Part shown: positions 1 to 26,600 of the stretch, piece after piece | Layout of the letters: every line of letters begins with the position of its first letter | Position numbering within the stretch: the stretch's first letter is position 1 | DNA from: a virus | Length of the DNA stretch: 30,601 nt | Virus record (IMG/VR): IMGVR_UViG_3300047476_001516 | Coordinates: 1 to 30,601 of that record | Reading direction: 5' to 3' (one strand) | Notes under the pieces: model-generated | Told to the model about the DNA's origin: nothing | Database searches by the model: none | The model's input: the letters and a program-made list of their open reading frames with translations, nothing else | Program-made: the position numbers and the translations under genes

Positions 1-314
1 ATGCCCATTTTCTCCGGGCCGGTGCCTATATCGTGCGCAAGACTGTCGATTGATGCCATCCCGGCAATGACGCGATTGGACCCAGGGCAACACATATAGA
101 TCGGATCTCTTTCTATTAGGGTCACTTGGAGTTCGGGCGAGATTCGTTTCAATGCCCTTGCCGCATTCATGCCGGCAAATCCTCCACCGGCAACGAGCAC
201 CCTGGCCTTGCTCAGATCACTGGCTTTGCCGGGGGTATCTTTGCATGCACCCAGTAACAGGCCCCCGCATCCTAGTCCGAGCGATAGAAAATGTCTGCGA
301 GAGATGGCTGGCAT
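1..314 (-). CDS. fccB: Flavocytochrome c sulfide dehydrogenase, FAD subunit (partial, C-terminus off window)
   Basis: The first 104 residues are visible; the rest lies beyond base 1. The N-terminus has a twin-arginine signal (SRRHFLSLG, then a hydrophobic run ending LLLGAC), so the protein should be exported folded with its FAD. Residues 38-50 hold the dinucleotide-binding signature VLVAGGGFAGMNA, followed by an acidic strand end (VTLIERD). The YMCCPGSN stretch resembles the region in flavocytochrome c/sulfide:quinone reductase flavoproteins that carries a redox cysteine. Known role of the family: oxidise sulfide in the periplasm and pass electrons to the cytochrome subunit. Its ATG lies one base after the stop of the upstream cytochrome gene, so the two are one operon. 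The region is GC-richer than the phage-like DNA to the right and reads as bacterial chromosome. A related FAD-dependent oxidoreductase is possible. Confidence 0.8.
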   Translation of the reverse strand, partial: MPAISRRHFLSLGLGCGGLLLGACKDTPGKASDLSKARVLVAGGGFAGMNAARALKRISPELQVTLIERDPIYMCCPGSNRVIAGMASIDSLAHDIGTGPEKMG

Positions 315-936: not shown

Positions 937-2723
937 ATGGCAGCTACAACTGCAAGTGGCGTTGGCGCAGCGGATCTTCCGTTGCTCGACAAAAAATGGC
1001 TCACCTTCGCATTCGCCATCTATGCTGTGTTCTACGCATGGGTACGCTGGTATGAAGGCGTCTATGGCTGGTCCGCCGGTCTCGACTCATTCGCACCCGA
1101 GTTCGAAACCTACTGGATGAACTTCCTGTACACCGAAATCGTCCTGGAAGTCGTCACCGCCTCCATCCTGTGGGGCTACATCTGGAAGTCCCGTGACCGC
1201 AACCTGGCGGCTATCACCCCGCGTGAAGAGCTGCGTCGCAACATGACCCACCTGGTCTGGCTGTTTGCTTACGCCAACGCCATCTACTGGGGCGCTTCCT
1301 ACTTCACCGAGCAGGACGGCACCTGGCATCAGACGATCGTGCGTGACACCGACTTCACCCCGTCACACATCATCGAGTTCTACCTGAGCTACCCGATCTA
1401 CATCATCACCGGCTTCGGCGCCTTCCTGTACGCCAAGACCCGTCTGCCTTTCTTCGCAGAAGGTCTGTCCCTGCCCTACCTGGTGACTGTGGTTGGTCCG
1501 TTCATGATCCTGCCGAACGTAGGTCTGAACGAATGGGGTCAAAATGGCTCCTACACTCAGTAATGAGTGTAGAAAACTGCTCTAATTGCTGGGAACTCCT
1601 ACTGGGACAATCAGCAGCCAAGCTCAGAAATGAGAAGGTTCAACGACTAGATCGCAAGATCGTACATCCAAGTGGATGGAAATGGGCAGAATCCCGTGAT
1701 GGGATTAAGATATAGTCTGGTCTTACAGGTAACTGTAAGCAGTTTCAATAAGAAACGGTATAAGAGTAACGAACTTATATGAACAAAACACATACTTTTT
1801 GGTTTCAACGTAAGCCACTTTAAGCAGTAATGTTTATAGAAAACCACTTTAATTGCTGGAAACTCCTACTGGGACAATCAGCAGCCAAGCTCAGAAATGA
1901 GAAGGTTCAACGACTAGCCGAAAGGCGTACACTCAAGCGAGTGGAAATGGGTGGGATCCTACTGGGATCAAGATATAGTCTGAACTGTATGGTAACATAC
2001 AGCAGTCCTAAAAGGACGGATAAGAATTTAGCGAATCTTATTGAACACGATGTTATGGAAGAACTTTTTGTCGCTCAATTGGGGCGCTTATAATCGCGAG
2101 ATTATAATGAAAACTCTGTGAATTCGGTGAACATCTCAATGCTGAGACAATACCGAGCCAAGCCCTGATTATAGGGAAGGTGTAACGACTATTCCGAAAG
2201 GAAGTACCATCAAGTGATGGGAAGCGCAGAGCAACTGATTGAATCAGTTGAAGAGATAGTCTGATCTATGTGGTAACGCATAGCAGTTCCTTTTGGAACG
2301 AGTAAGTATTAACGAAACTTACTGAACATTGCGCCATTGCACTATGGCTTCGTTTTCTTCGGTTAATAACTAGCCGCTTAATATAGCGATGTATTATGAA
2401 AAACTCCTTTAATTGCTGGAAACTCCCACTGGGACAATCAGCAGCCAAGCCCGAAAGGGAAGGTTCAACGACTAGCCGCAAGGCGTAGGATCAAGTGATC
2501 CGAAATGGGGAGCAACCAGAAATGGTTGAAGATATAGTCTGATCTGTGTGGCAACATGCAGCGGTTCTTAAAAAGAACGGTATAAGTATAACGAACTTAT
2601 ATGAACACATTGTGGTTAGCACTGGCGATTGCTGGAGTTCTACTCCAAGTATTTGCTAGTTTCGGTAATTTAATCGGAAAGGACATTGTTGAAGCGGTAG
2701 ATAGTGGATTGATTGCGAAGTAA
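937..2723 (+). CDS. pmoC: Particulate methane monooxygenase subunit C, split by four group I introns
   Basis: Predicted join 937-1539, 1791-1803, 2053-2075, 2334-2363, 2613-2723, giving 780 coding bases and 259 residues, the normal PmoC length. PmoC is an integral membrane subunit of the copper enzyme that oxidises methane to methanol. Exon 1 covers residues 1-201 and ends NEWG. Exon 2 supplies HTFW and the first base of F, exon 3 finishes F and gives MEELFVA, exon 4 gives [10 protein letters not shown], and exon 5 gives WLALAIAG to the end (LIAK). All copper ligands by homology to Methylococcus PmoC are present: D127, H131, H144 (CuC) and N198, H202, H216 (CuD), at a constant offset of 29. 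Unspliced translation stops at 1561. The start has AGAGG at 924-928. Exon 1 uses GC-rich, CTG-type codons; exons 2-5 use AT-rich codons like the phage genes. No pmoA or pmoB is visible. Splicing is inferred, not shown. Confidence 0.93.
1540..1790 (+). ncRNA. Group I intron 1 of pmoC (251 nt, no ORF)
   Basis: Core signatures are present: R-type GGTTCAACGACTAG at 1637-1650 and S-type AAGATATAGTCT at 1707-1718. P1 pairs exon end GGGGT with GCTCC at 1547-1551, with the expected U.G pair at the splice site. P2 is a 9-bp hairpin (CTACACTCA/TGAGTGTAG, GTAA loop) at 1551-1572. A 3-bp P10 (CAT with ATG at 1545-1547) and the spacing from a conserved GAACA seen in introns 2-4 both place the 3' splice site after 1790. 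That makes the last intron base A, not the usual G. Nearly identical in core and P9 hairpin to the intron at 8680-8930. It interrupts between G201 and copper ligand H202. Confidence 0.9.
1804..2052 (+). ncRNA. Group I intron 2 of pmoC (249 nt, no ORF)
   Basis: R element around 1904-1917 and S element AAGATATAGTCT near 1970-1981. P1: exon 2 end TGGT pairs with GCCA, with U.G at the splice site. P10: exon 3 start TTATG pairs with CGTAA immediately 5' of the P1 strand, a 5-bp match that fixes the 3' site. The intron ends in G at 2052, ten bases from the start of the conserved GAACA. It splits the phenylalanine codon between exon 2 and exon 3. A block of about 65 bases covering the P/Q and R elements is almost identical to intron 1. 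Confidence 0.92.
2076..2333 (+). ncRNA. Group I intron 3 of pmoC (258 nt, no ORF, divergent)
   Basis: The most divergent copy: R-type GGTGTAACGACTA and S-type GAGATAGTCT (about 2253-2262) are recognisable. P1: CGCT at the exon 3 end with GGCG, U.G at the splice site; P10: CCA of exon 4 with TGG. An 8-bp hairpin (TTATAATC/GATTATAA, GCGA loop) at 2089-2108 matches the P2 position of intron 1. It ends in G at 2333, again ten bases from the GAACA start. It lies two codons before copper ligand H216. Confidence 0.9.
2364..2612 (+). ncRNA. Group I intron 4 of pmoC (249 nt, no ORF)
   Basis: P1 pairs CGGT at the exon 4 end with GCCG, with U.G at the splice site. P10 pairs exon 5 start TGGTTA with TAACTA just upstream of the P1 strand (six pairs, one wobble). 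The R element GGTTCAACGACTAG and S element AAGATATAGTCT are intact. It ends in G at 2612. The 3' end (TATAAG stem, GAACA) closely matches introns 1 and 2. Splicing joins FFG to WLALAIAG in frame. Confidence 0.92.
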
Positions 2724-2743: not shown

Positions 2744-2770
2744 AAAAGGGAGCTATGCTCCCTTTTCTTT
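2744..2770. terminator. Bidirectional terminator between pmoC and the GIY-YIG gene
   Basis: A 10-bp stem AAAAGGGAGC/GCTCCCTTTT with TAT loop, followed by a T-rich tail on the plus strand and TTTTC on the minus strand. It lies 20 bases after the pmoC stop. The stop codon of the convergent endonuclease gene is in its loop, so it probably ends both transcripts. Confidence 0.85.
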
Positions 2771-3514
2771 TGTCTTTTGTTTACAATTGTCTCCGTGATA
2801 TCTTGTCATGTTGCCTCCACTGCCCACGTGTCCACAATGTGGACAAACTTTTGTTTTCATATTTCGTTTTTTAAAAACCCTATCTTTTAACCAACCTGGT
2901 TGAACATTCTCGTCAAGAACATAATAATCTTGCTCTCCGTCATTCCACCATTTAAAATCGCCTCTATCCCTCGTGTTTGCGCTTTCCGACATTTTTGCAA
3001 TAGTCTCATTGGAATACACATTCGTTCGACCTTTATTCCAAGGAACTTGTCCAGTTTTTTTGTTTTTGTTCCAAGGAGTGGAACCCTTTTTGGATCGACT
3101 CATTGTTTCGCGATATTCGTTAGTTCGTGGTGGTTTCTTTTTTCCTTTCCCCATTCTTCCTACTTCGGCCAGTTTTATTTTTGTTTCTGGTGTGTGTTTG
3201 TATCCTATTGTTCCCTCGCCTCCCTCTGTCATGTTGTATCCATTGCTATCGGGAAAATAAATGCAACTATTGAATTCTCGGATAAAATATGGTTCCATCT
3301 CTTTCAGTGTATGGATAGCATCTGATGATTGGTATATTGCTTCCCATTCAAAAGAATCCCAACCGTATTTTCTTAGACTTCTGTGAAAAACGTGATTTCC
3401 TATCTTCATCGCGGTCTTGTGTTCTGCTTGACGTTTAGGCCAATTGGAATCGTATCCTATGTAACACTTTCCTGAAATTTTGTGAGTTGCCTTATATATA
3501 GTATAAATATTCAT
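2753..3514 (-). CDS. Free-standing GIY-YIG homing endonuclease with NUMOD-type and zinc-finger regions
   Basis: A 253-residue protein. The start at 3514 is chosen over an upstream ATG at 3562 because GGAGGA precedes it and the GIY-YIG domain begins at once (MNIYTIYKATHKISGK, then CYIGYD). The catalytic pattern is visible: Y of the first motif, YIG, an arginine in the following helix (WPKRQAEH) and a glutamate in EPYFIREF. A segment GYKHTPETKIKLAEV matches the NUMOD3 style of DNA-binding motif. The C-terminus has a CPHCGHVGSGGNM...H...NC zinc-finger-like motif common in phage endonucleases. Such enzymes cut intron- or gene-less alleles to spread themselves or neighbouring introns. It sits tail-to-tail with pmoC, which carries four ORF-less introns, so it may drive their homing in trans. 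It is preceded by a structured leader shared with the other two GIY-YIG genes. Confidence 0.85.
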   Translation of the reverse strand: MNIYTIYKATHKISGKCYIGYDSNWPKRQAEHKTAMKIGNHVFHRSLRKYGWDSFEWEAIYQSSDAIHTLKEMEPYFIREFNSCIYFPDSNGYNMTEGGEGTIGYKHTPETKIKLAEVGRMGKGKKKPPRTNEYRETMSRSKKGSTPWNKNKKTGQVPWNKGRTNVYSNETIAKMSESANTRDRGDFKWWNDGEQDYYVLDENVQPGWLKDRVFKKRNMKTKVCPHCGHVGSGGNMTRYHGDNCKQKTKEKGA

Positions 3515-3583
3515 TGCTGATAGTCCTCCATAGACTGTTAGGGTAGTTAGGTGCGCTAACACCGTGAACTACACTTATTTATC
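3515..3583 (-). ncRNA. Conserved structured leader, copy A (late promoter + covarying hairpin + RBS)
   Basis: Reading on the minus strand: GATAAATA (3583-3576), AGT, outer stem GTAGTT/AACTAC, bulge CAC, inner stem GGTG/CACC, loop TTAGCG, single T, then CCTAACA and GGAGGA before ATCAGCA-ATG. Both stems are perfect and differ in sequence from those of copies B (7653-7719) and C (9971-10040), while the bulge, loop, CTAA and RBS regions are kept. The loop TTAG could pair with the downstream CTAA. Confidence 0.8.
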
Positions 3584-3606: not shown

Positions 3607-4227
3607 ATGCAATACGACACAAGAACATATGAAGAAAAATTTGCTCAACGATGGCTATGTGAAATGCCCCGTAGAACTGGATATCCAGGTAGCCCACTTG
3701 ATTTTTACAACATTGAATCGCTGATCAATGAGATGACCAACGTAGGATACCAAATCTTATCTTTTGGCAATGAATTATATGGGTTGGATACTGGTGATAC
3801 TAAATTTTTTTGGTTAGGCAATGATATGCAGATCGTTACAGAATTGCATTCATTTGAGCGAGCAATGGCTGTATCGGTTACTGCAAAAAATCCAGATGTT
3901 ACATCACACTATCATGCCAGTGATTTATATCAATCAATATTAAATCAGACAAACATTCCTTTGTTATTCAGCGGAGAACAAATGTCTACTGGCGGCGAGG
4001 GTATTTGGCGATGGTTGATGAAAAACGGAAACGTGTTAGCATACAAACCAAATGATCCTAAGCATTTTAAGCGATTAAGGACTATTGATGATTTTGAATC
4101 ATTGATTGGTGATACTGATGAATTTACTCAGTATAGATTTATTTTGAGTCCGAATAACATGAATTTAATGGAACATTATTCCTCATTTGAGATGATGCGA
4201 ATTTATCGTAATGTTCATGGAATATGA
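3607..4227 (+). CDS. Hypothetical phage protein, 206 aa
   Basis: I do not recognise this 206-residue protein. It is mixed alpha/beta in look, with no signal peptide, membrane segment or cysteine motif. The N-terminus is charged (TYEEKFAQRW); central features include GVGYQILSFG-like hydrophobic strands and an LLFSGEQMSTGGEGIWRWL segment. There is no clear ribosome-binding site before the ATG, and no in-frame alternative start upstream before the divergent leader, so the start is uncertain. It ends at a strong terminator. AT-rich codon use matches the phage genes around it. Confidence 0.7.
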   Translation: MQYDTRTYEEKFAQRWLCEMPRRTGYPGSPLDFYNIESLINEMTNVGYQILSFGNELYGLDTGDTKFFWLGNDMQIVTELHSFERAMAVSVTAKNPDVTSHYHASDLYQSILNQTNIPLLFSGEQMSTGGEGIWRWLMKNGNVLAYKPNDPKHFKRLRTIDDFESLIGDTDEFTQYRFILSPNNMNLMEHYSSFEMMRIYRNVHGI

Positions 4228-4253
4228 AAAAGCCCCGATTAAGGGGCTTTTTG
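4228..4253. terminator. Bidirectional terminator after the 206-aa gene
   Basis: Nine-bp stem AAAAGCCCC/GGGGCTTTT with a GATTAA loop, beginning immediately after the stop codon. It has T-runs in both directions and can also serve the convergent gene ending at 4352. The AGCCCCGATT...GGGGCT core recurs in the terminators at 9760 and 11233. Confidence 0.85.
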
Positions 4254-4351
4254 CTATCGCTCAAACATTAAGCACCGATTGAGCGAATGATGGGTTAACA
4301 TAATGCGGGCGAGCCAGGTGCTTTTGTTATTTAGCTTTATGATTGTGATAG

Positions 4352-4609
4352 TTAAATTTTCTTAACGGTTACCGAGGTTACATCACTGATCTTGGAGCAT
4401 TCTGCCGCAATATCGGCATACTTTTCTTTTAGAGCTTTTGAATCAATCGTGGTGCGAGATGCGGTAGTTACCTTTACCTCATATTGGTCACAAGTGAAGC
4501 TACCGTTAGCTTTCAGTGTGGCTTTCAGTGCATCGGCTTGCTCGGTGAGCGCCTTGATTTGAGCGTTGATTGCGAACAGGTCGGCTGCTACTTCGTTGAT
4601 GTTGCTCAT
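4352..4609 (-). CDS. Small early phage protein, 85 aa, helical
   Basis: The start at 4609 (MSNINEVAADL) is chosen over a longer frame from 4744 because it lies just after a consensus sigma70 promoter and a GAGGA site shared with the gene at 5020. Residues 8-35 form a predicted amphipathic, probably coiled-coil helix (NAQIKALTEQADALKATLKA), followed by a small beta region (YEVKVTTASRTTIDSKAL). This pattern is common in short phage proteins of unknown function. No function is assigned. The host-type promoter suggests early expression. Confidence 0.75.
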   Translation of the reverse strand: MSNINEVAADLFAINAQIKALTEQADALKATLKANGSFTCDQYEVKVTTASRTTIDSKALKEKYADIAAECSKISDVTSVTVKKI

Positions 4610-4771: not shown

Positions 4772-5020
4772 CTACACGTAACCCTTTGCTGCGCATTGAA
4801 GCGAGAAGAAAGTAGCTTCTCTCTTTGATGAGAAGGTGTATGATTCTTCTGATTTTAGTGTATTTGGCTCAAACCAATATACCTTCCAATTTTTGGAATC
4901 GCGAACAATCTTAGCCGTTCCATGCTGACCACGATAGTAGATATCACCGTAGTGGCCTTTCTCTGTCTTACATTGTGTCTTCAGTTCGGTAATGGCTGGA
5001 ATCAGATACGCTGTGTTCAT
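4772..5020 (-). CDS. Small early phage protein, 82 aa
   Basis: An 82-residue protein I do not recognise. The sequence has lysine-rich and aromatic segments (YGDIYYRGQHGTAKIVRD, WKVYWFEPN), suggesting a small beta-sheet domain and a C-terminal helix. No membrane segment. The start at 5020 follows GAGGA and a consensus promoter that is a near copy of the one before the 85-aa gene, so the two are likely co-regulated early genes with independent promoters. Confidence 0.75.
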   Translation of the reverse strand: MNTAYLIPAITELKTQCKTEKGHYGDIYYRGQHGTAKIVRDSKNWKVYWFEPNTLKSEESYTFSSKREATFFSLQCAAKGYV

Positions 5021-5095: not shown

Positions 5096-7405
5096 TTATC
5101 GTTGTTGTTTTTCTTGTTCTACTGCTCTGAGTACTTCATCTCGTAATTCTTCTGGCACAAGTTCTAACGCATCGACATCCTGACTAACAGCGATTTTGCA
5201 TAGTTCTGCATATTCTGGTAATTCTTCTGGCACAAGTTCCAACGCCCACCAAGCCTGGCTAACAGCGATTTTGCATAGCGTTGGTGTTCTTAGTTCTTCT
5301 GGCACAATTTCCAACGCATAACCGTTTTGACTAACAGCGATTTTGCATATATCTGCATATTCTGGCAATTCTTCTGGTACGTGCCGCAGTGCCTCGCCAT
5401 CTTGACTAACGGCGATTTTGCATATCTCCTCATATTCTGGCAATTCTTCTGGCACCCAATACAACGCCCAACCCTTTTGACTAACAGCAATTTTGCATAG
5501 CTTTGATGTTCGTAATTCTTCTGGCACATATTTCAACGCCAGGCCCTCATTACTAACAGCGATTTTGCATAGTTTTGCGTATTCTGGCAATTCTTCTGGC
5601 ACATATTTCAACGCCCCGCCACTTTGACTAACAGCGATTTTGTATAGTTCTGGTGTTCGTAATTTTTCTGGTACTTGATCCAGTGACAAAACTCCTTGAC
5701 TAACAGCGGCTTTGTATAATGCTGGTGTTAGCAAATATCTTGGCACATGCCTCAACGCCCAACCCTTTTGACTAACAGCGATTTCGCATATTTCTGGATA
5801 TTCTGGCAATTCTTCTGGCACAAGTTCCAACGTACGCCAATTTTGACTAACAGCGATTTTGCATAGTTCCGATGTTCTTAATTCTATTGGAACAAATTGC
5901 AACGCCCAGTCATCTTTGCTAACAGCGATTTTGCATATCTCTAAGTATTCTGGTAAGTCTTTTGGCACATATTCCAACGCCCTGCCGAAGTTACTAACAG
6001 CGCGTTTGCATAGTTCCGATGTTCTTAGTTCTTCTGGCACATATTGTAACGCCCACCCATATTGACTAACAGCGATTTTGCATAGTTTCGGTGTTATTAA
6101 TTCTTCTGGCACGTATTGCAGTGCGTCGCCACCTAGACTAACAGCGATTTTGCATAGCTTGGCATAACCAGGAGTAGTCGGTTGAACATACCCTAAGTTA
6201 TTATAATTCCGTAGAACAAGTCCCTTCAAGATTTCAAAATTTCTTCGTATATCTCTATTTGCTTGAGATATAAGTAATTTGGGATCTCTTTTCAACACAT
6301 CCAATATCACGTCTTTGTAACGATCAATAAGATTACTCGGAACATTCAGTGATAATTTTGGGTCTGTTTGAATTGCTTTATCCCATGCCGCAGGATCATT
6401 AGTGTATTCACCGGTATTTGGATCAATCAGATATTGTAAGCCCGGTGATAGACCTGATATCTCATTGATGTACATTTTCCTTACCCAAGTCGGTGCCTTT
6501 AGTGCTTGACTGGGACTTACTTTAATTTGATCGCTTATAAGATTAGGTTTTTTATTCTGAATTACTTGTAGATTTTCATCTGATAGGTCGAATACCGAGA
6601 AGTTATTGTCGGCTAAGTAACCCCCACCTTGTATGCCTTTTACCTTATCACTCAGTAATAAACTCATGATCTGAGGATGAAGTTTTTCTGATGGCTTCTG
6701 GTTATTATATGCCTTCATCTCTCCGAGATTGCCATTAGGTTCCAAAATAAAGGTAAGCAACACCTGACCGTTCTTTCTAAGACTCAGGATTCTTTGGTCA
6801 GGCTTGCTTTTTCCGGTTATATTACCACAATGCTTTCCGTACTCTCCTTCTTTCTCGCAGTAAGCCCTATCAACCCACCACCAAGCACTCCCATCAGGGA
6901 ATTTCATCAATTCATAATCGCCTTCTTGTGGTTCTATCGGTGGTAGATTATTTTTACTCTGTTTTTCACTCCAATCTTGTTCTATAGAACGTAGATCACC
7001 CATGATTTCATCATATGATTTCTTACCGAATTGATACGAATCTACTGCTGGTATATTGAAGCCAAAGAAGTGGCCAAGATCATTTTGAATTGCTTTTATA
7101 TCAGGTACTTGCTTGCCAGCCTGTTGATCAGCAAGCATATTGCCGACATTCTTCATGTACCAAACAATTTTTTCGTCCTTTTTCAAGGTAGCCTTTGCCC
7201 ACTTGAGTTGATCGGCAATCTCTTGTTGGAAATCGGGATATTTAGCCTTCATTGAAGCAATCATGCCATCGTAACTGGCTTCATCCAATTGATGCTCTTC
7301 GTATATCTTCTTACTGGATTCAACGACGAATTCATGAAACAACCGATAAGCAGTTGATTCATCATCATTCATAAGCGATTCAAGGATTTTAGTAAATTTG
7401 GACAT
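5096..7405 (-). CDS. 769-aa protein: phage N-terminal domain plus 14 DUF4116-type repeats
   Basis: Three regions. Residues 1-45 (MSKFTKILESLMNDDES..., LFHEFVVESSKKIYE) resemble the helical N-termini of T4-like phage head-associated proteins. Residues about 165-275 hold a YCEKEGEYGKHCGN motif followed by RILSLRKNGQVLLTFI and an EMKAYNNQKP segment; this C...HC arrangement is seen in a family of phage proteins of unknown function. Residues about 413-760 are 14 copies of a 22-27 residue unit with consensus CKIAVSQxxxALxxVPEEL, matching DUF4116 repeats, whose role is unknown. The repeats would form a helical solenoid suited to protein binding. A GATAAATA motif lies 22 bases upstream of the ATG, so late expression is likely; there is no clear Shine-Dalgarno. 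A virion or host-interaction role is only an inference. Confidence 0.8.
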   Translation of the reverse strand: MSKFTKILESLMNDDESTAYRLFHEFVVESSKKIYEEHQLDEASYDGMIASMKAKYPDFQQEIADQLKWAKATLKKDEKIVWYMKNVGNMLADQQAGKQVPDIKAIQNDLGHFFGFNIPAVDSYQFGKKSYDEIMGDLRSIEQDWSEKQSKNNLPPIEPQEGDYELMKFPDGSAWWWVDRAYCEKEGEYGKHCGNITGKSKPDQRILSLRKNGQVLLTFILEPNGNLGEMKAYNNQKPSEKLHPQIMSLLLSDKVKGIQGGGYLADNNFSVFDLSDENLQVIQNKKPNLISDQIKVSPSQALKAPTWVRKMYINEISGLSPGLQYLIDPNTGEYTNDPAAWDKAIQTDPKLSLNVPSNLIDRYKDVILDVLKRDPKLLISQANRDIRRNFEILKGLVLRNYNNLGYVQPTTPGYAKLCKIAVSLGGDALQYVPEELITPKLCKIAVSQYGWALQYVPEELRTSELCKRAVSNFGRALEYVPKDLPEYLEICKIAVSKDDWALQFVPIELRTSELCKIAVSQNWRTLELVPEELPEYPEICEIAVSQKGWALRHVPRYLLTPALYKAAVSQGVLSLDQVPEKLRTPELYKIAVSQSGGALKYVPEELPEYAKLCKIAVSNEGLALKYVPEELRTSKLCKIAVSQKGWALYWVPEELPEYEEICKIAVSQDGEALRHVPEELPEYADICKIAVSQNGYALEIVPEELRTPTLCKIAVSQAWWALELVPEELPEYAELCKIAVSQDVDALELVPEELRDEVLRAVEQEKQQR
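5125..6170 (-). repeat. Imperfect tandem repeats coding for the DUF4116-type units
   Basis: Fourteen units of about 66-81 bases, each containing a form of CTAACAGCGATTTTGCATA (plus strand) and an adjacent TCTTCTGGCACA. They are coding repeats, diverged in the loop positions. Confidence 0.9.
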
Positions 7406-8601: not shown

Positions 8602-8673
8602 GTCGGTTTATGGGGTATTAATCCACCTCGTAGGCGAATAGAACCGCCATTATAAACAAAAGGAGATAAAATC

Positions 8674-9740
8674 ATGGGTCGGCTGGCCCCGCCAGATAGT
8701 AATATCTAGTGATAACTGCTCTAATTGCTGGGAACTCCTAATGGGACAATCAGCAGCCAAGCCTCGTGAGAGGAAGGTTCAACGACTAGCCGAAAGGCGT
8801 ACACTCAAGTGAGTGGAAATGGGTAGGATCCCTCCGGGATCAAGATATAGTCTGATCTTACAGGTAACTGTAAGCAGTTTTGATTAAATCAAAGCGGTGC
8901 GGAATTAACGTCTCTGCGCGAACAACGTTGCGTCCTCTAAAAGTACAGAAGTATTCACCAGGTTCCGGGGATAACGGAACATCAACCACAGCGGGCAACG
9001 GTGTTCCGGTTCCCGTAGATATCGCTTATCCACCGTTTATTGCGATGGATCCAGGCACCGCTGTCACACCAGCTGGTAGCCTTATTACACCACCTTGGAC
9101 TGGTGTAGTCGGTGGTGTGCCAAACCCAGCAACGTCTGCTGCTTACCCTATCGTGGCCATTACTGTAAATGTAGCTCTACCTAACGGAACTGGCGCTGGT
9201 GTTGCACCGGGTGCAATTATTCGTCAGAAAGGTTCGCGCAAATATATGGTAGCTGATCTAACGCCTGTTGCAGCCACGGCCATGATTCCTGGTGCAGCTT
9301 ATATGATTGCCACTACAGGCAATACACCATGGCAATCATTTGGTGCAAGCGTTAATTATAATATTTGGGATGTATTCACTTGTACTGCCGCTGGTACTGG
9401 AACGGGTACTGCATATCTTGTGGGTTCTTGCGTTCTTGACGATACAGCTAATCCGACTGTGGGCAACATGAGTATCGGTTTCCTTGATAGCACTTCCACG
9501 GTTCAGTATATCAGCAAATTAACAAATAAATTTCTATTTGACTTTGCTGGTGGCGAGGTCGGCGGTAATGCTAATGCCGGTGATGTCTGGTCATATGAAC
9601 AGGTACAAAACAACGAACGTTGGATTGCGAACTTTTTCACTGATGATGGATACATGGTCAAGTCTGGCACAAGTGGTGGTCCGAATACACCCGGCCAACA
9701 AAACCAAGTTCCGATGGGAGATGTGGATTCTTATACCTAA
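8674..9740 (+). CDS. Phage structural protein, start codon separated by a group I intron
   Basis: Predicted join 8674-8679, 8931-9740: exon 1 is only ATG GGT, exon 2 continues with CGT CCT, giving MGRPLKVQ and a 271-residue protein. Exon 1 carries the ribosome-binding site (AGGAG at 8661-8665); exon 2 has none, so the gene needs splicing to be translated. Unspliced translation from 8674 stops after 11 codons. The mature sequence is glycine, alanine, threonine and proline rich with repeated beta-type strands, and an MGRPL start is typical of T4-like phage structural proteins. No enzyme motif. It is probably a head-decoration or fibre-associated virion protein. A splice site three bases earlier (adding L) is also in frame. 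Confidence 0.75.
8680..8930 (+). ncRNA. Group I intron 5, after codon 2 of the structural gene (251 nt, no ORF)
   Basis: It carries the same P/Q block (CTAATTGCTGGGAACTCCTA), R element GGTTCAACGACTAG and S element AAGATATAGTCT as the pmoC introns. P1 pairs exon end GGGT with GCCC, with U.G at the splice site; P2 is AGATA-GTAA-TATCT. The P9 hairpin CTTACAGGTAACTGTAAG is identical to that of pmoC intron 1, its closest relative. The 3' end has a P9.2 stem and GAACA, then G at 8930 (or 8927). The same length as pmoC intron 1. Confidence 0.88.
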
Positions 9741-10040: not shown

Positions 10041-10163
10041 ATGATATTTATTATCTCGGTCAATCGACCCGAAAATTCTCCTATTGGCGTTGCCATAATC
10101 AACAAAGGAGAACTTCAATGGCAACTAAAAAATCAAAAACACCTGTCTACTATACCTATCTGA
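10041..10163 (+). CDS. Short upstream ORF (40 aa) overlapping the endonuclease start
   Basis: The ATG at 10041 has exactly the position relative to leader copy C that the endonuclease ATGs have relative to copies A and B, with the same GAGGA site, so it is probably translated. The product (MIFIISVNRPENSPIGVAII...) has no domain. It overlaps the start of the gene at 10118 in another frame, which suggests a leader peptide, translational coupling, or a relic of a gene replaced by the endonuclease. Confidence 0.45.
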   Translation: MIFIISVNRPENSPIGVAIINKGELQWQLKNQKHLSTIPI

Positions 10164-11224
10164 TAGGGTGGTCTTGGCTTAATACTTGGTATTATGGAAG
10201 CAAATATTCTAAAAATGCCGACCCAGAATTATTCTGGAAGAAATACTTCACATCAAGTAAACACGTAAAGCGATTTCGTGAACAACACGGCGAACCTGAT
10301 GTAATTCAAGTCAGACATACCTTCAACTGTCCTATTAAAACACTTGCTTGGGAAGGCAAAGTTCACAAACGCATGGGTTGTCGGTTGAGTTCACGGTGGC
10401 TAAATGCGGCCGATGCTAATGTCAAGTGGAACACCGCCGGTATGTTCAACGTAAAAGATAATTTAAATAATATTTTTCAAGTATCAGTGAATGATTTTAG
10501 ATATCTATCTGGTGAACTCAGGGGCATATTAAGTGATAGAGTAACTGTGCAGGATAAGTCTGGTAAAACGATGTCAGTGTCGGTGTCTGACGAAAAATAT
10601 ATATCAGGAGAGTGTATCAGTATCAATAAGGGAAAAATTCCGGTAAAAGATAAGGATGGGAAATCATCACAAGTGACGAGAGATGATTTTAGGTGGGTAT
10701 CTGGAGAACTCGTTCACGTCACTAAAGGTACTGTAAACGTGTTGGATAAAGATGGCAATAATATTAGAATAAAAAAAGACGATCCACGATTGTTGTCGGG
10801 TGAATTGACAGGGATCGTCAAAGGAACTATTGTAGTTATGGACAAAGATGGCAATAAATTCAGAGTATCTAAGGATGATTCTAGGTGGATATCCGGCGAG
10901 TTAAAAGCATTGTCTTCTAATACAGTGATGATCAGAGACAAAGATGGAAGTGCGATCAGGGTGTCAAAGGACGATCCACGGTGGGTATCGGGCGAGATGA
11001 CGGCAATCGCCAAAGGCAAGGTGAATGTTATCGACAGAGATGGAAATAAGTTTATGGTATCAAAGGATGATCCTCGATGGTTATCGGGTGAATTGATAGC
11101 ACTATCTACAAATTCCGTTGTGGTAAAGGATAAGTTCGGGAATAAATTTAGAGTATCAAAAGATGATCCTCGATGGTTATCGGGTGAAGTTGTAGGAGTA
11201 AATAAGAAAAATTGGCCCTGTTGA
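10118..11224 (+). CDS. GIY-YIG-like endonuclease with eight C-terminal DPRWLSGEL repeats
   Basis: A 368-residue protein. Residues 10-105 (YYTYLIGWSWLNTWYYGSKY, YFTSSKHVKRFREQHGEPD, WEGKVHKRM, RWLN) match a GIY-YIG-type domain common in T4-like phage mobile endonucleases, with YLIG/YYG for the two motifs and E80 as the candidate metal-binding residue. Residues about 111-362 are eight units of about 30 residues with consensus VxDKDGNxFRVSKDDPRWLSGEL, which are probable DNA-binding modules like the NUMOD-type repeats of homing enzymes. Start chosen for AAAGGAG nine bases upstream. It ends at a terminator that is a near copy of the one before it at 9760, so the cassette is flanked by direct repeats. 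Confidence 0.75.
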   Translation: MATKKSKTPVYYTYLIGWSWLNTWYYGSKYSKNADPELFWKKYFTSSKHVKRFREQHGEPDVIQVRHTFNCPIKTLAWEGKVHKRMGCRLSSRWLNAADANVKWNTAGMFNVKDNLNNIFQVSVNDFRYLSGELRGILSDRVTVQDKSGKTMSVSVSDEKYISGECISINKGKIPVKDKDGKSSQVTRDDFRWVSGELVHVTKGTVNVLDKDGNNIRIKKDDPRLLSGELTGIVKGTIVVMDKDGNKFRVSKDDSRWISGELKALSSNTVMIRDKDGSAIRVSKDDPRWVSGEMTAIAKGKVNVIDRDGNKFMVSKDDPRWLSGELIALSTNSVVVKDKFGNKFRVSKDDPRWLSGEVVGVNKKNWPC

Positions 11225-11859: not shown

Positions 11860-13116
11860 ATGATTTTTAAATCTTTCAAATATCGCCTATATCCAAATGT
11901 GGCCCAACAAGAGCAGATGATAAAGACATTTGGGTGTAAACGACTAATATTCAATCATCTACTTGATACACAAATCAAGAGATATGAATCGGGTGAAGGA
12001 AATCTTACTTACTTCGGATGTAATAATCTGATTGTGGAATGGAAGAAGGAAGAAGAAAAAGCATTTTTGACAGAAGTAGATAGTCAAGCACTTCAGCAAG
12101 CAGCAAAAGACTTGCACGATGCCTATACTAACTTCTTCAAATCACTGAGCGGCAAGAGGAAAGGGACTAAAATTAATAGCCCTAAATTCAAATCCAAGTA
12201 TGCACGTCAGAGCTATCGTACCCCAAATAATAATGGAACGATTAAATTCAAAGATGATTCTTTGAGATTGCCAACTTTGGGTTATGTAAGAGCAGTTATT
12301 GACAGGAATATAGAGGGAAAAATTAAATCGGCTACTATCTCCATGGATAGAGATGGCAAATTTTATGTATCTGTTTTGGTTGAAACGGAACAGAAACTAT
12401 TATCAATGACTGGCAAGGAAGTCGGCATTGATTTAGGGATTAAGGATTTATTTGTTACATCAGATGGCAATAGATTCGATAATCCAAAAGACTTAATTCG
12501 TATGACAAAAACCACGCAACGAATTAAGTTGTTGCAGAAAAAGTTGGCAAGAACAAGAAAAGGCAGTAAGAGCAGAGAAAAGCTACGAATTCAATTGGCA
12601 TCTGCATATAAGAGGTTAACCAATCAAAGAAACAACTATTATCATGAAATCAGTCATTGGTTGGTTAATTCGTATGATGCAATTTATGCGGAAGATTTGA
12701 ATGTGAAAGGAATGATGGCTAATAGAAAACTATCAAGAGCTATTCATGAATCTTCATGGGCCACTTTGGTGGGAATGATTCAATATAAATGCGAGTGGTA
12801 TGGAAAAACATTTTATCAAATCAATCGCTATTATCCATCTTCAAAGACTTGTTCTTGTTGCAGCAATAAAATAGAAAAATTGTCATTATCCGAACGTGAA
12901 TGGAAGTGCCCATCTTGTGGCACATTACACGATAGAGACTATAATGCAGCGATAAATATCCTCAAAGAAGGACAAAAAGACTTATATAGCACTTCGTTGG
13001 TCCGACGCGAAGCGGGCGAAATAATCGTCCCGTCAGCTCTAGTGAAATTGAGTAGTAAAACCGAGAGGTCTGATTCGTTGAAATCAGTTGCTCAAGGGAC
13101 AGAGTTAGTTTATTAA
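11860..13116 (+). CDS. tnpB: IS605-family TnpB, RNA-guided nuclease, without TnpA
   Basis: A 418-residue protein with the whole TnpB architecture: N-terminal FKSFKYRLYPN region, central wedge/REC part, RuvC motifs with D191 (GIDLG), E278 (YAEDLNV) and D360 (HDRDYNAAINI), and a zinc ribbon CSCC...CPSC (C331, C334, C350, C353). All catalytic residues are intact. TnpB proteins are known RNA-guided DNA nucleases that use an omega RNA from their own 3' end and favour transposon retention. No tnpA is present, the gene starts 10 bases after the previous stop and the next gene starts 37 bases after its own, so there is little room for transposon ends. It may act as a stand-alone homing-type gene. The start lacks a clear Shine-Dalgarno. 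Confidence 0.92.
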   Translation: MIFKSFKYRLYPNVAQQEQMIKTFGCKRLIFNHLLDTQIKRYESGEGNLTYFGCNNLIVEWKKEEEKAFLTEVDSQALQQAAKDLHDAYTNFFKSLSGKRKGTKINSPKFKSKYARQSYRTPNNNGTIKFKDDSLRLPTLGYVRAVIDRNIEGKIKSATISMDRDGKFYVSVLVETEQKLLSMTGKEVGIDLGIKDLFVTSDGNRFDNPKDLIRMTKTTQRIKLLQKKLARTRKGSKSREKLRIQLASAYKRLTNQRNNYYHEISHWLVNSYDAIYAEDLNVKGMMANRKLSRAIHESSWATLVGMIQYKCEWYGKTFYQINRYYPSSKTCSCCSNKIEKLSLSEREWKCPSCGTLHDRDYNAAINILKEGQKDLYSTSLVRREAGEIIVPSALVKLSSKTERSDSLKSVAQGTELVY

Positions 13117-17649: not shown

Positions 17650-20600
17650 ATGGCACTAACTAAACCCCGCGCTGCACAGCTTTATGACATTGATTACAAG
17701 CAAGCTGCATTGGTTGTTACTACAACCAATATCGCCCTTGTTGGAGGAGCACCTAACGTAGTAGATGGTGTAGCTCTTGCACAAAATAGCCGAGTTCTGG
17801 TAACAGGGCAATCTATTCCTGCACAAAATGGTATCTATACCGTTACTACGCTCGGAACGGGAGTAAGTGGAACTTGGACAAGATCACAAGATGCAACCGT
17901 AACCGGTCAATTACTCTCTGGTACTATTATAACAGTAACTGAGGGTGTTGTCAATCGTGATTCTCAATGGATGTTGACAACTGATGGTGTAATTACCATT
18001 GGCACTACCGCAATTCAGTTCGCTAAATTCAGCGACAAGACATTCAGTGAAATTGATGCAAACGGCGTTGCCATCATTGCAACCACATTTGGTGATACCC
18101 TAAACATTCTACCCGGAAATAATATCAGCATCGTAGGTGATGCAAGCTCCAAGACCATCACTATTGCTGCTACGATTGCTCAACCCACTCAGATTATCAA
18201 TGGATCATCCAGAGTGTATATTCCTTCAGCAAATAGCAATGTCGCAATATCTGTTGGTGCAATTTCAAATGTTGCTGTATTCAGTCCTTCTGGATTGGGA
18301 TTAGTCGGTTCATTATCTACTACTGGAAATGCTGCTATCGGTGGCAATCTTACTGTTGCTGGGACTTATACTGCTGGAAATATCGTTGTTGGTAACATCA
18401 CTATCCCACATGGTGGTAGAATTGTCGGTGACCTTATCCCTGCTATTGATAGCACGTTTAGTCTTGGTAATGCAACAAGCAAATGGAAAGATTTATGGTT
18501 AAGCAATTCTACACTGTATATTGGTAATACAACGGTATCAACTAATTCTACTGGTCAATTAACAGTCAATGGAAACACTGTTGTTACTGCCGCTGCTAAT
18601 GGATTGCTTAATGTTAGTAACATTGCGGTCACTAATACTATTTTTGCAAGCGGAATCTATGTTAGCAATGCTAATCGTGATGCGCCGGTCTCGGCTGATA
18701 TTGTAATCGCAACTGAAGTACGTGGTAATCTACTCATTGGTAATGGTGCGTTCATCACCGACATTTATAGTAATGCAAATGTAGCTAACTATCTTGCTAA
18801 TTATTCTGGTCAATTTGGCAATGGCAATATTCAGCTTAGTGTAGCAAATATTAACGCTAATGGATACATTACATCCACATCGTCTATTACTGGAGCTTCG
18901 TTAGTTAGCAATTCTACAATCACAGCCGGTGGGTCACTGACTGCACAAAGTATTGTTAGTAATAGCTCTATTAGTGCTGCAACTACAATTACTGGCCAAG
19001 CGTTAGCGAGTAACAGCTTTATCAGCGCAGTATCTACGATTGTTGGTCAACAAATTATTGGTAATGTAGCTGTATCTACGCCTGGAACAATGACCGGTGG
19101 TGATGTTGTTAGCAACAATAGCATCACTGCTGCTGGAATTATTTTGGGACAAGATATCACAGCAAATGATACAGTCACAGCGGGTGGTGTATTAACTGGA
19201 CAAGAAATCGTCAGCAACACTTTTGTTTTAGCAGAAGATATTATCAGCAATGATTCAATTATCGCTGGTGGCGATGTCCTTGCCAACGCAATATATGCTA
19301 ATAATAACATTTTTGCTGGTGGCACTATTGCTACTGCTAGCTCGGTTATCGGTCATAATTTTATTGCTAATGAGTCTATCACTGCCGGTGATTTTATTGA
19401 TTCTCAAAGCTCTATCACTGGACAATCAATACTTAGTAATACCAGCATTGCTGGTCAATCGCTTAACATTGCTCAATCTGGTCAATTCGGTAAAGATTTG
19501 AGTGTCGGTGGAAATATTCATGTTGCCGGCAATGCTTATGTTGAGGGTAATGTTACCTATATTAACATTGAAGAATTGAGTGTTCAAGACCCGATTATTT
19601 CCATGGGTAGAGGACCAAACAACACACCCCTTACTGCAAATGATGGATTTGATCGTGGCGAGCAAATGTGGTATTACACTACATTGGAACAGTCTGCATT
19701 TATTGGCTATCAAAATAGCACTGGTAAATTGTTGGCGGCTAATAATGTCACAATCACTAACGAAATCGTTACAGTAAATAATTTTGGTACATTTGAAGTA
19801 GGCAACCTTGAAGCAGAAAACGTAGCTATTTCTGGTGATATTGCGGTTATCAATGCTTATATCACAAATGATGCCGTTGTTGGCGGTAATCTTGTTTCTA
19901 ATGATACATTTGTGGCAGATGGACAAAATACCTTCATCAATTCAGGCGTTACTGCAATTCGTGGTACTATTTTTGGTGTTGGTAGAGAAGCTAATAATGC
20001 TTCGCTAACTGCTGATGATGGCTTTGATCGCGGTGAGCAACTATGGTACTTTGATGTTGCGGGTAATGTTGAGAAGAGCGCGTTCATGGGTTATGATAAT
20101 TCAATGGATGTCATGATTATTGCAACTGATGCTACGGTGACCGGCAATATTGCAACAGTGAATAACTATGGCAATGTGATGGTGGGTAATGTAATCGGCC
20201 AAAATGTAATCACTCAAAACGCTGATATTTCCACTCTGGCAACAGTGCAAGACCTTGTTGTTAACGCAATGACAACAACCACCGATTTGAATGTTCTTAA
20301 TGATGCCAACATTGGTGGTACTCTCACTCTAAATGATCTTCAAGCCACTACTGCAAATATCGGGACGCTTGTTGTTCCTGTTTTGGCTACGATTGAAGAA
20401 CTAATCGTCAATCAAGATGCCAATGTACTTGGTAACGTCATTGTCACTGAAGATTTGATCGTTAGTGGTCAAAATACTTTTATCAATTCTTCTGATTTTG
20501 AAATCAGTGATCCCGTGATCGGAATTGGTAGAGGGGCCAATAATACTCCTCTGTCATCTAATGATACTAAAGATCGTGGTGAACAACTGTGGTGGTTTGA

Positions 20601-23600
20601 TGCTAACACTGTAACTGAAAAGTCGGCATTTATCGGGTATTCTTCCTTCAATGATAAACTATTTGCAGCCATCGACGTAACTGTTACAAACGAACAAGTA
20701 ACAACTATTCATAATTATGGTAATTTTGTTGTCGGCAACCTTGAAGGACAATTTGCTACTCTTAGCGCGAATGTTGATGCTGGCAATCTGAACGCTGTTG
20801 CGAATGTTAATGCTGGCAATGTGCTTATCTCAAGAGATGCCTTCATCACTGGAAATTCTAATGTAACTGGCAATATTATTGGTAGTAATTTACTGATTAA
20901 CAACACAGCGAACATTCAAGGCAATGCCAACATTATCGGTAATGCAAATGTAACTGGCACTCTTGATGTTATTGCACCAGCTTATCTTCGTGGTGGCGCA
21001 AACATCAGTTCTTATGCCAACATCGGTGGTAACTTAATCGTAAATAATATCTCTACAGGTAATGTAGATGCTGGCAATATCAATTTGGCTAATAGCATCA
21101 ATGTTGGTAAATTCGCTAATATCACTGGCAAAATCACTGGTGGAAATGATCTCGTTTTAGCTGGCAGTGCAAACATTAGCGGTAATGCGTCTATCACCGG
21201 TAATATCACTGGCAATTATATGTCAATCAATAATGATGTTACTATTGGTGGTAATGCGCTTATTATCGGTAATGCTATCATTGATGGCAATGTAACATAC
21301 ATCAACATTGAAGATTATAATGTTCAAGACCCGATTATCTCACTTGGCACTGGTCCAAATGGCGCACCTCTGACGTTCAATGATGGTAAAGATCGCGGTG
21401 AAAACATGGTTTACTATCGCGGTACTCAGAAATCCGCGTTTATTGGTTACGATGAATCTGCCAACACTCTTACTGCTGCCATTGATGTAACAATCGCTAA
21501 TGAAATCGTATCAGTAAATGCTTATGGTAATTTCGTTGTTGGTAATGTCTTCGGTGCTAATATCACTGGCAGTGGCAACATCGGTGGCAATAATATCAAT
21601 GCAACGAATGATGTCACGATTGGCAATAGTTTAACGGTAACTGGCTCAATCAGCATGGCTGGTCCTCTTGTTGCTGATAGTGTTACTTCTAATACTACTA
21701 TCACTGCGGTTGGTAATGTATCTGGTGGAAATTTAGTAACAGCCAATCTGGTTCAGGGCAGCAATCTATATTCAACTGCGACTATCACTGCGGTGGGCAA
21801 TGTATCTGGTGCTAATGTTACTACTACTGGTAATGTTGTTGCTACCGGTAACTTGGTCGCTGGTGCTAATCTACTCGTAAGTGGAGTAGCGAATTTTGTC
21901 GGGAACGTTGCTGCTGGTAACTTCACTACTACTGGTAATGTTGTTGCTTCTGGAAATGTCAATACTGCGAGCACATTCAATGGCGCTAATCTAAACGTAA
22001 CTAATACCGCAAATATCGGCAATGCCGCTAATGTTGTTGGTAGACTTGGTGTAGGTTCATTGGTTGTTGAAACTAATGCTAATATTGTTGGCACAGCGTC
22101 GGTTGGTGGTAACATCTCTACTGGTGCAAACGCAATCATCGCTGGTTATGCGAATGTTGCTGGTAACATCAATGGCAGTGCTAACCTCAATATTCCAGAT
22201 AACATTTATGCGAACAATATCTTCCTGCGTAATTTCGTGTTCGCAAATGCGAATGTTACTGCTGGTAATCTGATCTCTAATGCAAAAATCACTGGTGTAG
22301 ATATTGCTATTTCGCGTGATGCTAATGTTGTTGGTAATCTAACGATTGGCGGTAATTTGGTGGTAGATGGTGGCTTTGGTGATCTAAATGTAACATCTCT
22401 CACTGTTGAAGATCCCATTGTGCTATTTGGTGGTGGTCCTAATAACGCTCCGCTTGCGAACAACGATGGCAAAGATCGTGGCACTGGTCTAAATTACTTC
22501 AATGCTGGTCCTAAAGTTGGATTCTTTGGTTATGATAATAGCCAGACTGAAATTGTGGCTGCACTTGACGTTACTATCGCTAACGAAGTTGTTACATATC
22601 ATGATTGGGGAACATTCAGAGCGGGTAATATCGCTGCTCAGACTGCAACGGTATCTGGCAATATTATTGCCTCTGGAAACGTGGCAGCAAGCAACGTCAA
22701 TGTATCGGCTAATGTAAACACTGCTAATCTATATGCTTCTGGCATGGCAAATATTATTGGCAATTTGGATGTAAATGGTAATCTAAATGCTGTTCACATT
22801 AACGCTTCTGGCAATTTGGCCATTGACAATCTGTCTGCTAATACGATAACTTCCAATGGGAATATATCTGGTAGTAATCTAAACGCTTCTGGTAACGTAG
22901 CTGCTATTGGCAACATTCAAACTGCTGCTGGCATCTTGGCTACAGGTAATATCAAGGGAGCTAATCTGATTAGCACTGGTAATACTATCTCCATGGGCAA
23001 TGTCGTGGCTAATCTGTCGCTTCTTGGTAATGGGTTGGCGGTCACTGGTACGGCCAACATCGTTGGTGCGGCTAATGTTCAAGGTGAGCTAAGTGTAACT
23101 GACTTGAAGGTAGCAAATTCTGCCAATCTTGGTGGAGCTAATCTTGTTACAACCGGCAACATTAGTGGAAATAATCTGATTATTAGTCGTGTTGCGAACA
23201 TTGGTGGTAACGTTAATATCGGCGGCAATGCAAATATCGCCAATGACATTTATGCGAATAATGCTTATCTACGTAACTTCGTTTATGCAAATGCCAATGT
23301 AGTTGCTGGTAATCTGATCTCTAATGCCAATATTACTGGTGGAAACATTCTAATCAATCGCGATGCTCAAGTAACCGGTAATCTGATTATTGGTCAAGAT
23401 TTGATTGTAGATGGCAATACCACTTATATCAATATCGTTGATTATAATATTCAAGACCCGATCATTTCACTCGGTGGTGGTCCAAACGGTACACCATTGA
23501 CGTTGAATGACGGAAAAGATCGTGGCGAAAACATGATCTACTTCAGAGGAACTCAGAAATCTGCATTCGTTGGTTATGATAACTCTGCTAATACTATCAC

Positions 23601-26600
23601 TGCTGCAATTGATGTAACTATTACTAATGAAATCGTAACTGTTAATTCTTATGGTGATTTTGTTGTTGGCAATATCTTTGGCGCTAATCTAACGGCTAAT
23701 GGCAATGCTACTATCGGTGGTACTGCTACTATCTCTGGTGATGCAAACGTAACGGGCGATGTTAACTCAAACAATCTATCTACAGTAAACGATGCGAACA
23801 TTGGTGGTAATCTAACTGTTTCTGGTATTCTAAATGCAGTAAATGTAAACTTCAGTGGCGACTTAGCTGTTGACGATCTAAATGCTAACACAGTTACAGC
23901 TAACGCTAATATCACTGGTGGTAATCTAATCTCCAACGCTTTGGTGAGAGGTAGCAATCTATTCTCTACTGCTACTATTACTGCTGTTGGTAATGTAACT
24001 GGTGGAAATATCACTACTTCTGGTAATGTTGACACCACTGGCACATTCAATGGCGCTAATCTTGTTCTATCTGGACAAGCCAATATTGCTGGACCCGCTA
24101 ATGTTGCAGGACAATTATCTGCAAATTCTCTGCGAGTTCAAACTACAGCTAACGTGGGTGGTGTTGCTAACGTGGTTGGTAACATCGTTGGTGGTTCAAA
24201 TGCAATAATCGCTGGTTATGCGAATATCGGTGGCAACATTAACGGTGCTGCTAACCTCAATATTCCAGATGACATTTATGCGAACAACGCTTATCTACGT
24301 AACTTCGTGTTTGCAAACGCTAATGTTACTGCTGGCAATTTGATATCTAATGCTCGCACCACGACCGTTACTTTACAAGTAACAAATGACGCTAATATTG
24401 TTGGCAACGAAGTTATTGGTGGCAATCTTGTTGTAAGTGGCGCTCACACCTATCTGAATACAACAAATGTTCTGATTACTGACCCTATCGTTGGCATTGG
24501 TCGCAACGCAAATAATGCACCATTGACTTCTGGTAATACACAAGATCGTGGTTCTCAACTCTGGTACTTCAACACAACTGAAAAATCGGCGTTCATGGGA
24601 CTTGATCAATCAGCTAATGCACTTATCGCGGCCCTCGATGTAACCATCGCTGGCGAAATCGTAACAGTAAACGATTATGGCAAATTTATTGCTGGTAATA
24701 TTGAAGCTACATCCGCTGTTGTTACGGGCAACGTTGCTGCTGGAAACTTCACTACTGCTGGTAATGTAATTGCATCAGGCAATGTTGGCGCTAACAATAT
24801 GACTGTTACTAATGACGCAAATGTTCTTGGTGACATGAATGTAGTTGGAACTCTAACTGCTGGTACAGTTGCATTTACAGGAAATCTGGACGTTAATGTA
24901 TTGAACGCGAATAGCATCAATGCAAACAGCAATATCACTGGTGGTAATCTAATCTCTAATGCGTTGGTCCAAGGTAGCAATGTATTCTCTACTGCGACTA
25001 TTACTGCTGTTGGTAATGTAACCGGCGGCAACATTGTTACTTCTAACTCTGTTGTTAGCAAAGACCTGTTGATGAGCGGCAATGCAAATATTGCTGGTAC
25101 AGCTAATGTACTGGGTGCACTATCTGCTAACTCACTTCAAGTACACACCAATGCGAATGTTGCTGGAACAGCTAACGTGGTTGGTAATATCGTCGGTGGT
25201 TCAAATGCAATTATCGCTGGATATGCAAATGTTGGTGGTAACATCAATGGTGGTGCTAACCTCAATATTCCAGATGACATTTATGCTAACAACATCTTCC
25301 TACGTAACTTCGTTTATGCAAATGCTAATGTAGTTGCTGGTAATCTGATCTCTAATGCCAACATTACTGGTGGCAATCTACTGATTAATCGCAATGCTCA
25401 AGTGGTTGGTAATCTGATTGTTGACGAAGACCTCATCGTAAACGGTAATACCACTTATATCAACATCGTTGATTATAATGTTCAAGACCCGATTATATCA
25501 TTGGGTGGTGGTCCAAACGGAGCGCCCCTGACAACTAATGACGGAAAAGATCGTGGTGAAAACATGATCTATTTCAGAGGAACTCAGAAATCCGCATTCG
25601 TTGGTTATGATAACTCTGCCAATACTATCACAGCAGCCGTTGATGTAACTATTGCTAATGAAGTAGTTACCGTAAACAGTTATGGTGCATTTGTTGTCGG
25701 TGATGCGTATGCTAATACCATCGCTGCCAATGGCAATATCTCTACATCAAGTTACTTTGTTGGTAATGCAGCATATCTTGATATGACGACCTTCACCGGT
25801 AATATCATACCCTCTGCAAATGTGACATATAGTCTCGGTAACGCTACTAATCAATGGAAAGACCTATGGGTTAGTAATGCTACGATCTATATCAATAGTA
25901 TTCCTCTAAGTGTAAACGCTAACACTGATCTCACCATTAACGGTGACCCAGTTGTTAGTATCAACCCGGCTACGTATGAAACTAATGTAGGTAATTTGGT
26001 AGTACCCAACACCGTATCTGCTGGCAATATAGCTGTTGCGGCTGATCTTACGGTTGCCAACACTATAACAGCGGCATTCTACTCTGGTGATGGTAACGGA
26101 CTTGTTAACCTATATCCACAGTTCGGTAATGCTGACGTTACTGCTGGCAATATCATCGCTAATAGTAACATTGGTGCTGCTAATCTAAGCGTTAGCAACC
26201 AAGCCAATATTGCTGGAGCAGCTAACGTTCTTGGAGCACTATCTGCCACATCATTGCAAGTACACACCAATGCAAATGTTTCTGGTAATGCAAATGTTTC
26301 CGGTAACATAAGCGGAGGAAATCTAGCTATATCAGGTGTTGCGAATGTTGGGGCTAATATCAATGGCGGTGCTAATCTAAATATCGCTGATGACATCTAT
26401 GCGAACAACGCTTATCTACGTAATTTCGTGTTCGCAAATGCGAATGTTACTGCCGGTAATCTGGTATCCAATGCTCGCACAACTACGGTTGATCTACGTG
26501 TTACTCAGAATGCCAATATCGTTGCAAATGCGGTTGTTGGTGGTAATATAACAACCAGTGGTTCTTTGGCTTATATCAATGCAACCACATTGGCTGTTGT

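Follow-up and report, generated by a model that had tools for sequence, protein, structure and literature searches.

Analysis of a 30,601-nt viral sequence (IMG/VR record IMGVR_UViG_3300047476_001516, positions 1 to 30,601, hereafter the window) revealed a pmoC gene interrupted by four genuine group I introns. In this virus record, pmoC is an auxiliary gene of a tailed phage. With good confidence, we consider it likely that this gene was invaded four times by ORF-less group IA2-type introns, that these are spliced out to give a full-length PmoC, and that the left end of the record is host DNA. The features on which this reading is based are the following:

3 to 314, minus strand: N-terminal part of an FCSD-like flavoprotein, bacterial side (FAD/NAD-binding Pfam matches; 94% to bacterial contig G010:C188)
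316 to 624, minus strand: small c-type cytochrome ORF, bacterial side (CxxCH motif CAGCH; homologues adjoin the same flavoprotein in Methylococcaceae genomes)
937 to 1539, plus strand: pmoC exon 1, codons 1-201 (bacterial at least to about 1231, the host-phage switch being placed within 1231-1540)
1540 to 1790, plus strand: group I intron 1, 251 nt, no ORF, 3' end A, not G (RF00028, 93.9 bits; boundaries)
1791 to 1803, plus strand: pmoC exon 2, 13 nt (spliced frame, spliced alignment)
1804 to 2052, plus strand: group I intron 2, 249 nt, at the site of the first intron of phage L019 (RF00028, 96.3 bits)
2053 to 2075, plus strand: pmoC exon 3, 23 nt (spliced frame, spliced alignment)
2076 to 2333, plus strand: group I intron 3, 258 nt, at the site of the intron of phage L036 (RF00028, 97.9 bits)
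2334 to 2363, plus strand: pmoC exon 4, 30 nt (spliced frame, spliced alignment)
2364 to 2612, plus strand: group I intron 4, 249 nt, at the site of the second intron of phage L019 (RF00028, 104.7 bits)
2613 to 2723, plus strand: pmoC exon 5, 111 nt including the stop codon (spliced frame, codon comparison)
2744 to 2769, plus strand: terminator-like hairpin followed by a T run, 3' of pmoC (aaaagggagc-tat-gctcccttttc)
2753 to 3562, minus strand: free-standing GIY-YIG/NUMOD3 homing endonuclease adjoining pmoC (PF01541, PF07460; phrog_314 homing endonuclease, 4.8e-27)
8680 to 8927, plus strand: fifth group I intron, located in another phage gene behind its second codon (ATGGGT) (RF00028, 85.1 bits; orthologue in L101)

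A cmscan search of the window gave five matches to the Rfam model RF00028 above the gathering score, four in pmoC (1530-1739, 1794-2002, 2066-2283 and 2354-2561) and one at 8670-8874. The four pmoC matches score between 93.9 and 104.7 bits (E<=3e-23) and cover model positions 1-253, corresponding to a full-length core with P1 in the upstream exon. All four introns proposed in a preliminary description of this DNA are thus matched by the group I model at the places it had named, with the right boundaries and coordinates. Excision of 1540-1790, 1804-2052, 2076-2333 and 2364-2612 leaves 780 nt encoding the continuous PmoC of 259 residues that it had announced, which exceeds the cut-offs of both TIGR03078 (387.6 bits versus 280.6) and NF041641 (405.3 bits versus 319) and hence reaches the PmoC/AmoC equivalog level. 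We also obtained the same figures for the summed intron length (1,007 nt versus 780 nt of spliced coding sequence) and for the internal exons (13, 23 and 30 nt). The four boundaries were recovered independently by spliced alignment, using a script with a mild reward for T before the intron and G at the intron end. The intron/exon architecture of the preliminary description therefore stands, and three of its points had to be corrected: the owner of the gene, which is a tailed phage, exon 1, which is at least largely bacterial, and intron 1, which lacks a terminal G.

To describe the intron fold, 13 introns (the five of the window and eight from viral contigs) were aligned on an IA2-type structure drawn from intron 4, which extends from P1 to P9.2, with P7 as a pseudoknot, and contains 65 pairs. 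Standard pairs fill 91.4% of the pair cells, and 51 of the 65 pairs display changes on both sides. The observed values for pairing and double changes were reached in none of 500 shuffles, and sliding the partner by 1-3 columns lowered pairing to 35-47%. Across the 13 introns, P3 and P7 are paired in 100% and P4 in 96%; pairing as well as covariation support helices P3, P4 and P6-P9, including the guanosine site in P7. P1, P7 and the U.G pair are intact in every intron compared. The preliminary description had placed a U.G in P1 at each 5' site and a P10 at each 3' site; the former is invariant in 13/13 related introns, with a P1 of 4-5 bp in the four pmoC introns of the window, and the latter comprises 3-6 bp at all four. 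Each of these introns pairs best with its own flanking exons, over 4-5 bp on the 5' side and 3-6 bp on the 3' side; among cross-matches, the closest is between the intron 4 guide and the end of exon 2. Regarding the hairpins located between P7 and P3, P7.2 is paired in 100% of cases, with covariation, and P7.1 in 66.7%. Their position fits the IA2 subgroup, a label that we take from general knowledge of phage introns rather than from a subgroup model.

Intron 1 departs from this family by its last base. The 12 other introns of the comparison, among them introns 2, 3 and 4, all terminate with G (intron 5 with its end set at 8927), while intron 1 ends in A. Its 3' junction reads ...GAACAAAACA before the splice site and CAU after it, and the last base was assigned as A because the splice site is fixed there both by the GAAC tail, which is invariant, and by a P10 of 3 bp (AUG/CAU). 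No in-register G is available as an alternative end of intron 1, and a 3' site after TATATG (1781) was rejected, as it adds Asn-Lys-Thr and loses the invariant GAAC tail. The terminal G is known to occupy the guanosine site during the second splicing step (PMC3984707), and this site in P7 of intron 1 is unchanged despite the terminal A. Given this contrast with the 12 other introns, splicing of intron 1 is doubtful: having lost the canonical G as assembled, it may be defective or slow, or misassembled at this point. A search for a second copy of the 3' junction of this residue-201 intron gave just a chance match (L328).

Related introns were looked for in about 98 distinct viral pmoC contigs, obtained from three viral scans in addition to the window, and were found in 10 of them, with a maximum of two introns per pmoC versus four in the window. 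Spliced alignment showed that other phages carry or lack an intron at sites identical to those of the window. The sites lie at residues 44 (L018), 128 (L248), 204 (L057, L067 and others), 213 (L036) and 219 (L032), and at residues 206 and 223 in L019; the window alone adds residue 201. Residues 201-223, whose codons are among the best conserved, hold six of these eight sites. The L018 gene (5143-7030), with its intron after residue 44, is borne on a 259-kb phage contig. In L248, the intron (4239-4507) follows residue 128, between EQDG and TWHQ, and an HNH endonuclease gene lies downstream. L111, selected as a possible intron-split pmoC for its match length (L112 and L114 look similar), was discarded because its pmoC ORF is uninterrupted. 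RF00028 was detected in 1/38 genomes of the host family, Methylococcaceae, and the sole match (L329) was rejected as a pmoC intron, its locus carrying LAGLIDADG-like ORFs (by ORF reading) and being unrelated to pmoC. The phage GenBank collection contained no PmoC match.

Selection on the split frame and the history of the introns bear on two other explanations. A comparison of the 44 codons that begin with HTFWF, where exon 2 starts, and run into exon 5 gave 22 synonymous codon differences between the window and phage L019 and 23 between the window and phage L018; nonsynonymous differences numbered 0 in both cases, a signature of purifying selection. A frame cut into pieces of 13, 23 and 30 nt is under strong protein-level constraint in the window's lineage, and, of the evidence that sequence alone can provide, this synonymous-only divergence speaks most strongly for removal of the introns, whose splicing we infer. 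It is difficult to reconcile with a decaying pseudogene, in which PmoC would no longer be needed, introns would pile up and intron 1, devoid of its terminal G, would remain unspliced. The A at the end of intron 1 and the truncated or fragmented phage pmoC copies reported by Chen et al. 2020 (PMC7674155) are in line with such a decay, which we nevertheless judge unlikely given the absence of any amino-acid change relative to two phage relatives and the intact P1, P7 and U.G of all introns. Tandem duplication of one intron inside pmoC, rather than repeated homing, could be suspected from the relatedness and the common size, about 250 nt, of the four introns. However, their identity is just 56-73%, and in the intron tree the residue-206 introns of the window and L019 group together, as do the residue-223 introns, while intron 3 (residue 213) groups with those of L036, L057 and L067. 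This grouping by site, combined with the low identity, indicates separate arrivals; a tandem origin is therefore extremely improbable and was ruled out on the intron tree. Under the preferred reading of four separate invasions, small introns would have entered the best conserved 22 codons of the phage gene. Each intron would form P1 with its own 5' exon, introns 2-4, which end in G and possess P10, would undergo the usual two transesterifications, and the spliced mRNA would yield full-length PmoC.

None of the related introns exceeds about 260 nt, a length that leaves no room for an endonuclease gene inside them. A homing-endonuclease-like gene is located at most 2.5 kb from pmoC in 9/10 intron-bearing versus 11/72 intronless loci, a count that is partly circular, the queries having come partly from intron-bearing loci, and that is based on contigs that are not independent. 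The endonuclease beside pmoC is of the GIY-YIG/NUMOD3 type in the window and of the HNH type in L248. This adjacency of endonuclease and intron-bearing pmoC resembles the layout of a collaborative homing system. Because the introns carry no endonuclease gene, their spread would most likely depend on neighboring enzymes, through collaborative homing or co-conversion driven by pmoC-adjacent endonucleases (here the GIY-YIG enzyme encoded at 2753-3562). By analogy with cyanophage psbA, such neighboring homing endonucleases probably account for intron mobility.

The left end of the record has another origin. Positions 1-1151 are 94% identical to the bacterial contig G010:C188, and a second bacterial copy from G010 covers 933-1231, with block identities of 93-98% at 1021-1231. 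Homologues of the flavoprotein and cytochrome genes upstream of pmoC occur in Methylococcaceae genomes, whereas the viral pmoC loci tested yielded none. On account of this identity and these homologues, the window from position 1 to at least about 1230 is assigned to a methanotroph chromosome. Exon 1 as a whole shows about 87% identity to phage L019, with a common exact run of 79 nt at 1309-1387, which illustrates how the pmoC of the host and that of the phage can be mixed up. At 1540, GC content drops from 0.55-0.60 to about 0.41; GC3 falls from 0.7-0.93 across the greater part of exon 1 to 0.35 in exons 2-5, whereas related high-GC bacterial pmoC genes keep a GC3 near 0.8-0.9 up to the gene end. 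The host-to-phage switch is situated somewhere in 1231-1540. The left 1.2-1.5 kb contains the host flavoprotein, cytochrome, pmoC promoter and 5' part of pmoC, and the record from the first intron rightward belongs to a tailed phage infecting a gammaproteobacterial, Methylococcaceae-like methanotroph.

We regard the record as, very likely, an assembly chimera in which host and phage DNA are joined at pmoC, the fusion having most probably been made by the assembler at sequence common to the two genes. A true join, resulting from recombination or integration of the phage at the host pmoC and leaving the bacterial operon with an intron-split 3' half, would agree with the single contig, with the continuity of the PmoC frame across the join and with the 79-nt run, which offers similarity enough for homologous recombination. 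It is made quite improbable by the position of the GC3 switch at an intron edge, by the presence of virion-type genes instead of pmoAB on the right side, and by the occurrence of RF00028 in just one of 38 Methylococcaceae genomes, at a locus away from pmoC. Moreover, viral contigs (L243, L247, L249-L252) and bacterial contigs (L106, G010:C188) both break inside pmoC, and the same confusion was described by Chen et al. 2020, whose phage scaffolds stopped at pmoC, assembly being confounded by bacterial copies (PMC7674155). Since the record is a hybrid at pmoC, exon 1 is not certainly that of the phage; L019 shows the form it could take. Fusion of host and phage contigs at pmoC thus calls for caution.

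Comparison with known systems delimits what is new. The preliminary description knew of no other metabolic gene with four group I introns so tightly packed. The count does not hold: the Chlamydomonas chloroplast psbA, likewise a metabolic gene, has four, although it is an organelle gene and its introns are described as large (PMC5931967). Four RF00028 matches were also found around an SU10-type major capsid gene (L097, 2891-4657, about 1.8 kb; also L085 and L091). Four introns per gene is therefore not unique, and the novelty, as far as searched, lies in the dense packing and in the gene, pmoC. A close parallel is psbA of cyanophage S-PM2, where an auxiliary metabolic gene of a phage likewise harbors a group I intron and adjoins a free-standing endonuclease gene, F-CphI, an arrangement named collaborative homing (PMC6083498); it differs by its single intron and its gene, and the endonuclease of the window is a candidate homing enzyme of the GIY-YIG type. 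Several related group I introns also reside in orf142 of Staphylococcus phage Twort, a structural gene with three introns, for which splicing and exon skipping have been demonstrated (PMC11878797, PMC3073962, PMC4853749), whereas in the window splicing is predicted. Bastillevirinae genes contain up to three (PMC11878797).

Phage pmoC itself was already known (PMC7674155; PMC10904782). In methanotroph phages, Chen et al. 2020 described several pmoC genes, among them those of TP6_1, BML_3, BML_4 and LR_6, as 'fragmented', and in LR_6 they noted a non-coding gap that is transcribed; these gaps were not called introns, a word absent from that paper (PMC7674155), and our search of the open literature found no paper linking phage pmoC with introns. 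At least some of these 'fragmented' genes are probably split by group I introns; the pmoC of L018 is probably one of them, and L018 may correspond to TP6_1. Such genes would then be intact and intron-containing, and surveys counting broken or short pmoC would misjudge their function. After psbA, pmoC would be the second phage metabolic gene with group I introns and neighboring homing endonucleases, and it offers an extreme test of partner choice by related ribozymes across exons of 13-30 nt. Cyanophage psbA intron splicing responds to conditions (PMC5931967). More tentatively, and with considerable doubt, phage pmoC genes could form a group I intron hot spot, with four ribozymes in one short transcript of the present phage splicing around these short exons, either conditionally as in cyanophage psbA or with in-frame skipping of exon 4 or of exons 2 and 3, the phage thereby timing production of a methane monooxygenase subunit.

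Several other features of the window differ among relatives. The long DUF4116-repeat protein encoded at 5096-7405 lies downstream of pmoC here, has a homologue upstream in L019 and is absent from L101. The position of the fifth intron, two codons into its gene, is identical in L101, where the freshwater-2 RNA motif gives a match below threshold (4852-4936, minus strand) directly upstream of the intron-bearing gene. A scan gave no relative for the protein encoded at 3607-4227. An HNH-endonuclease-like repeat protein (10118-11224; phrog_12434) has no counterpart at this position in L101, and an inserted TnpB/IS605-type gene (11860-13116) separates two phage genes that lie side by side in this close relative. 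Finally, an ORF of virion type, repetitive and very long (17650-30600, more than 4,300 codons), runs off the record.
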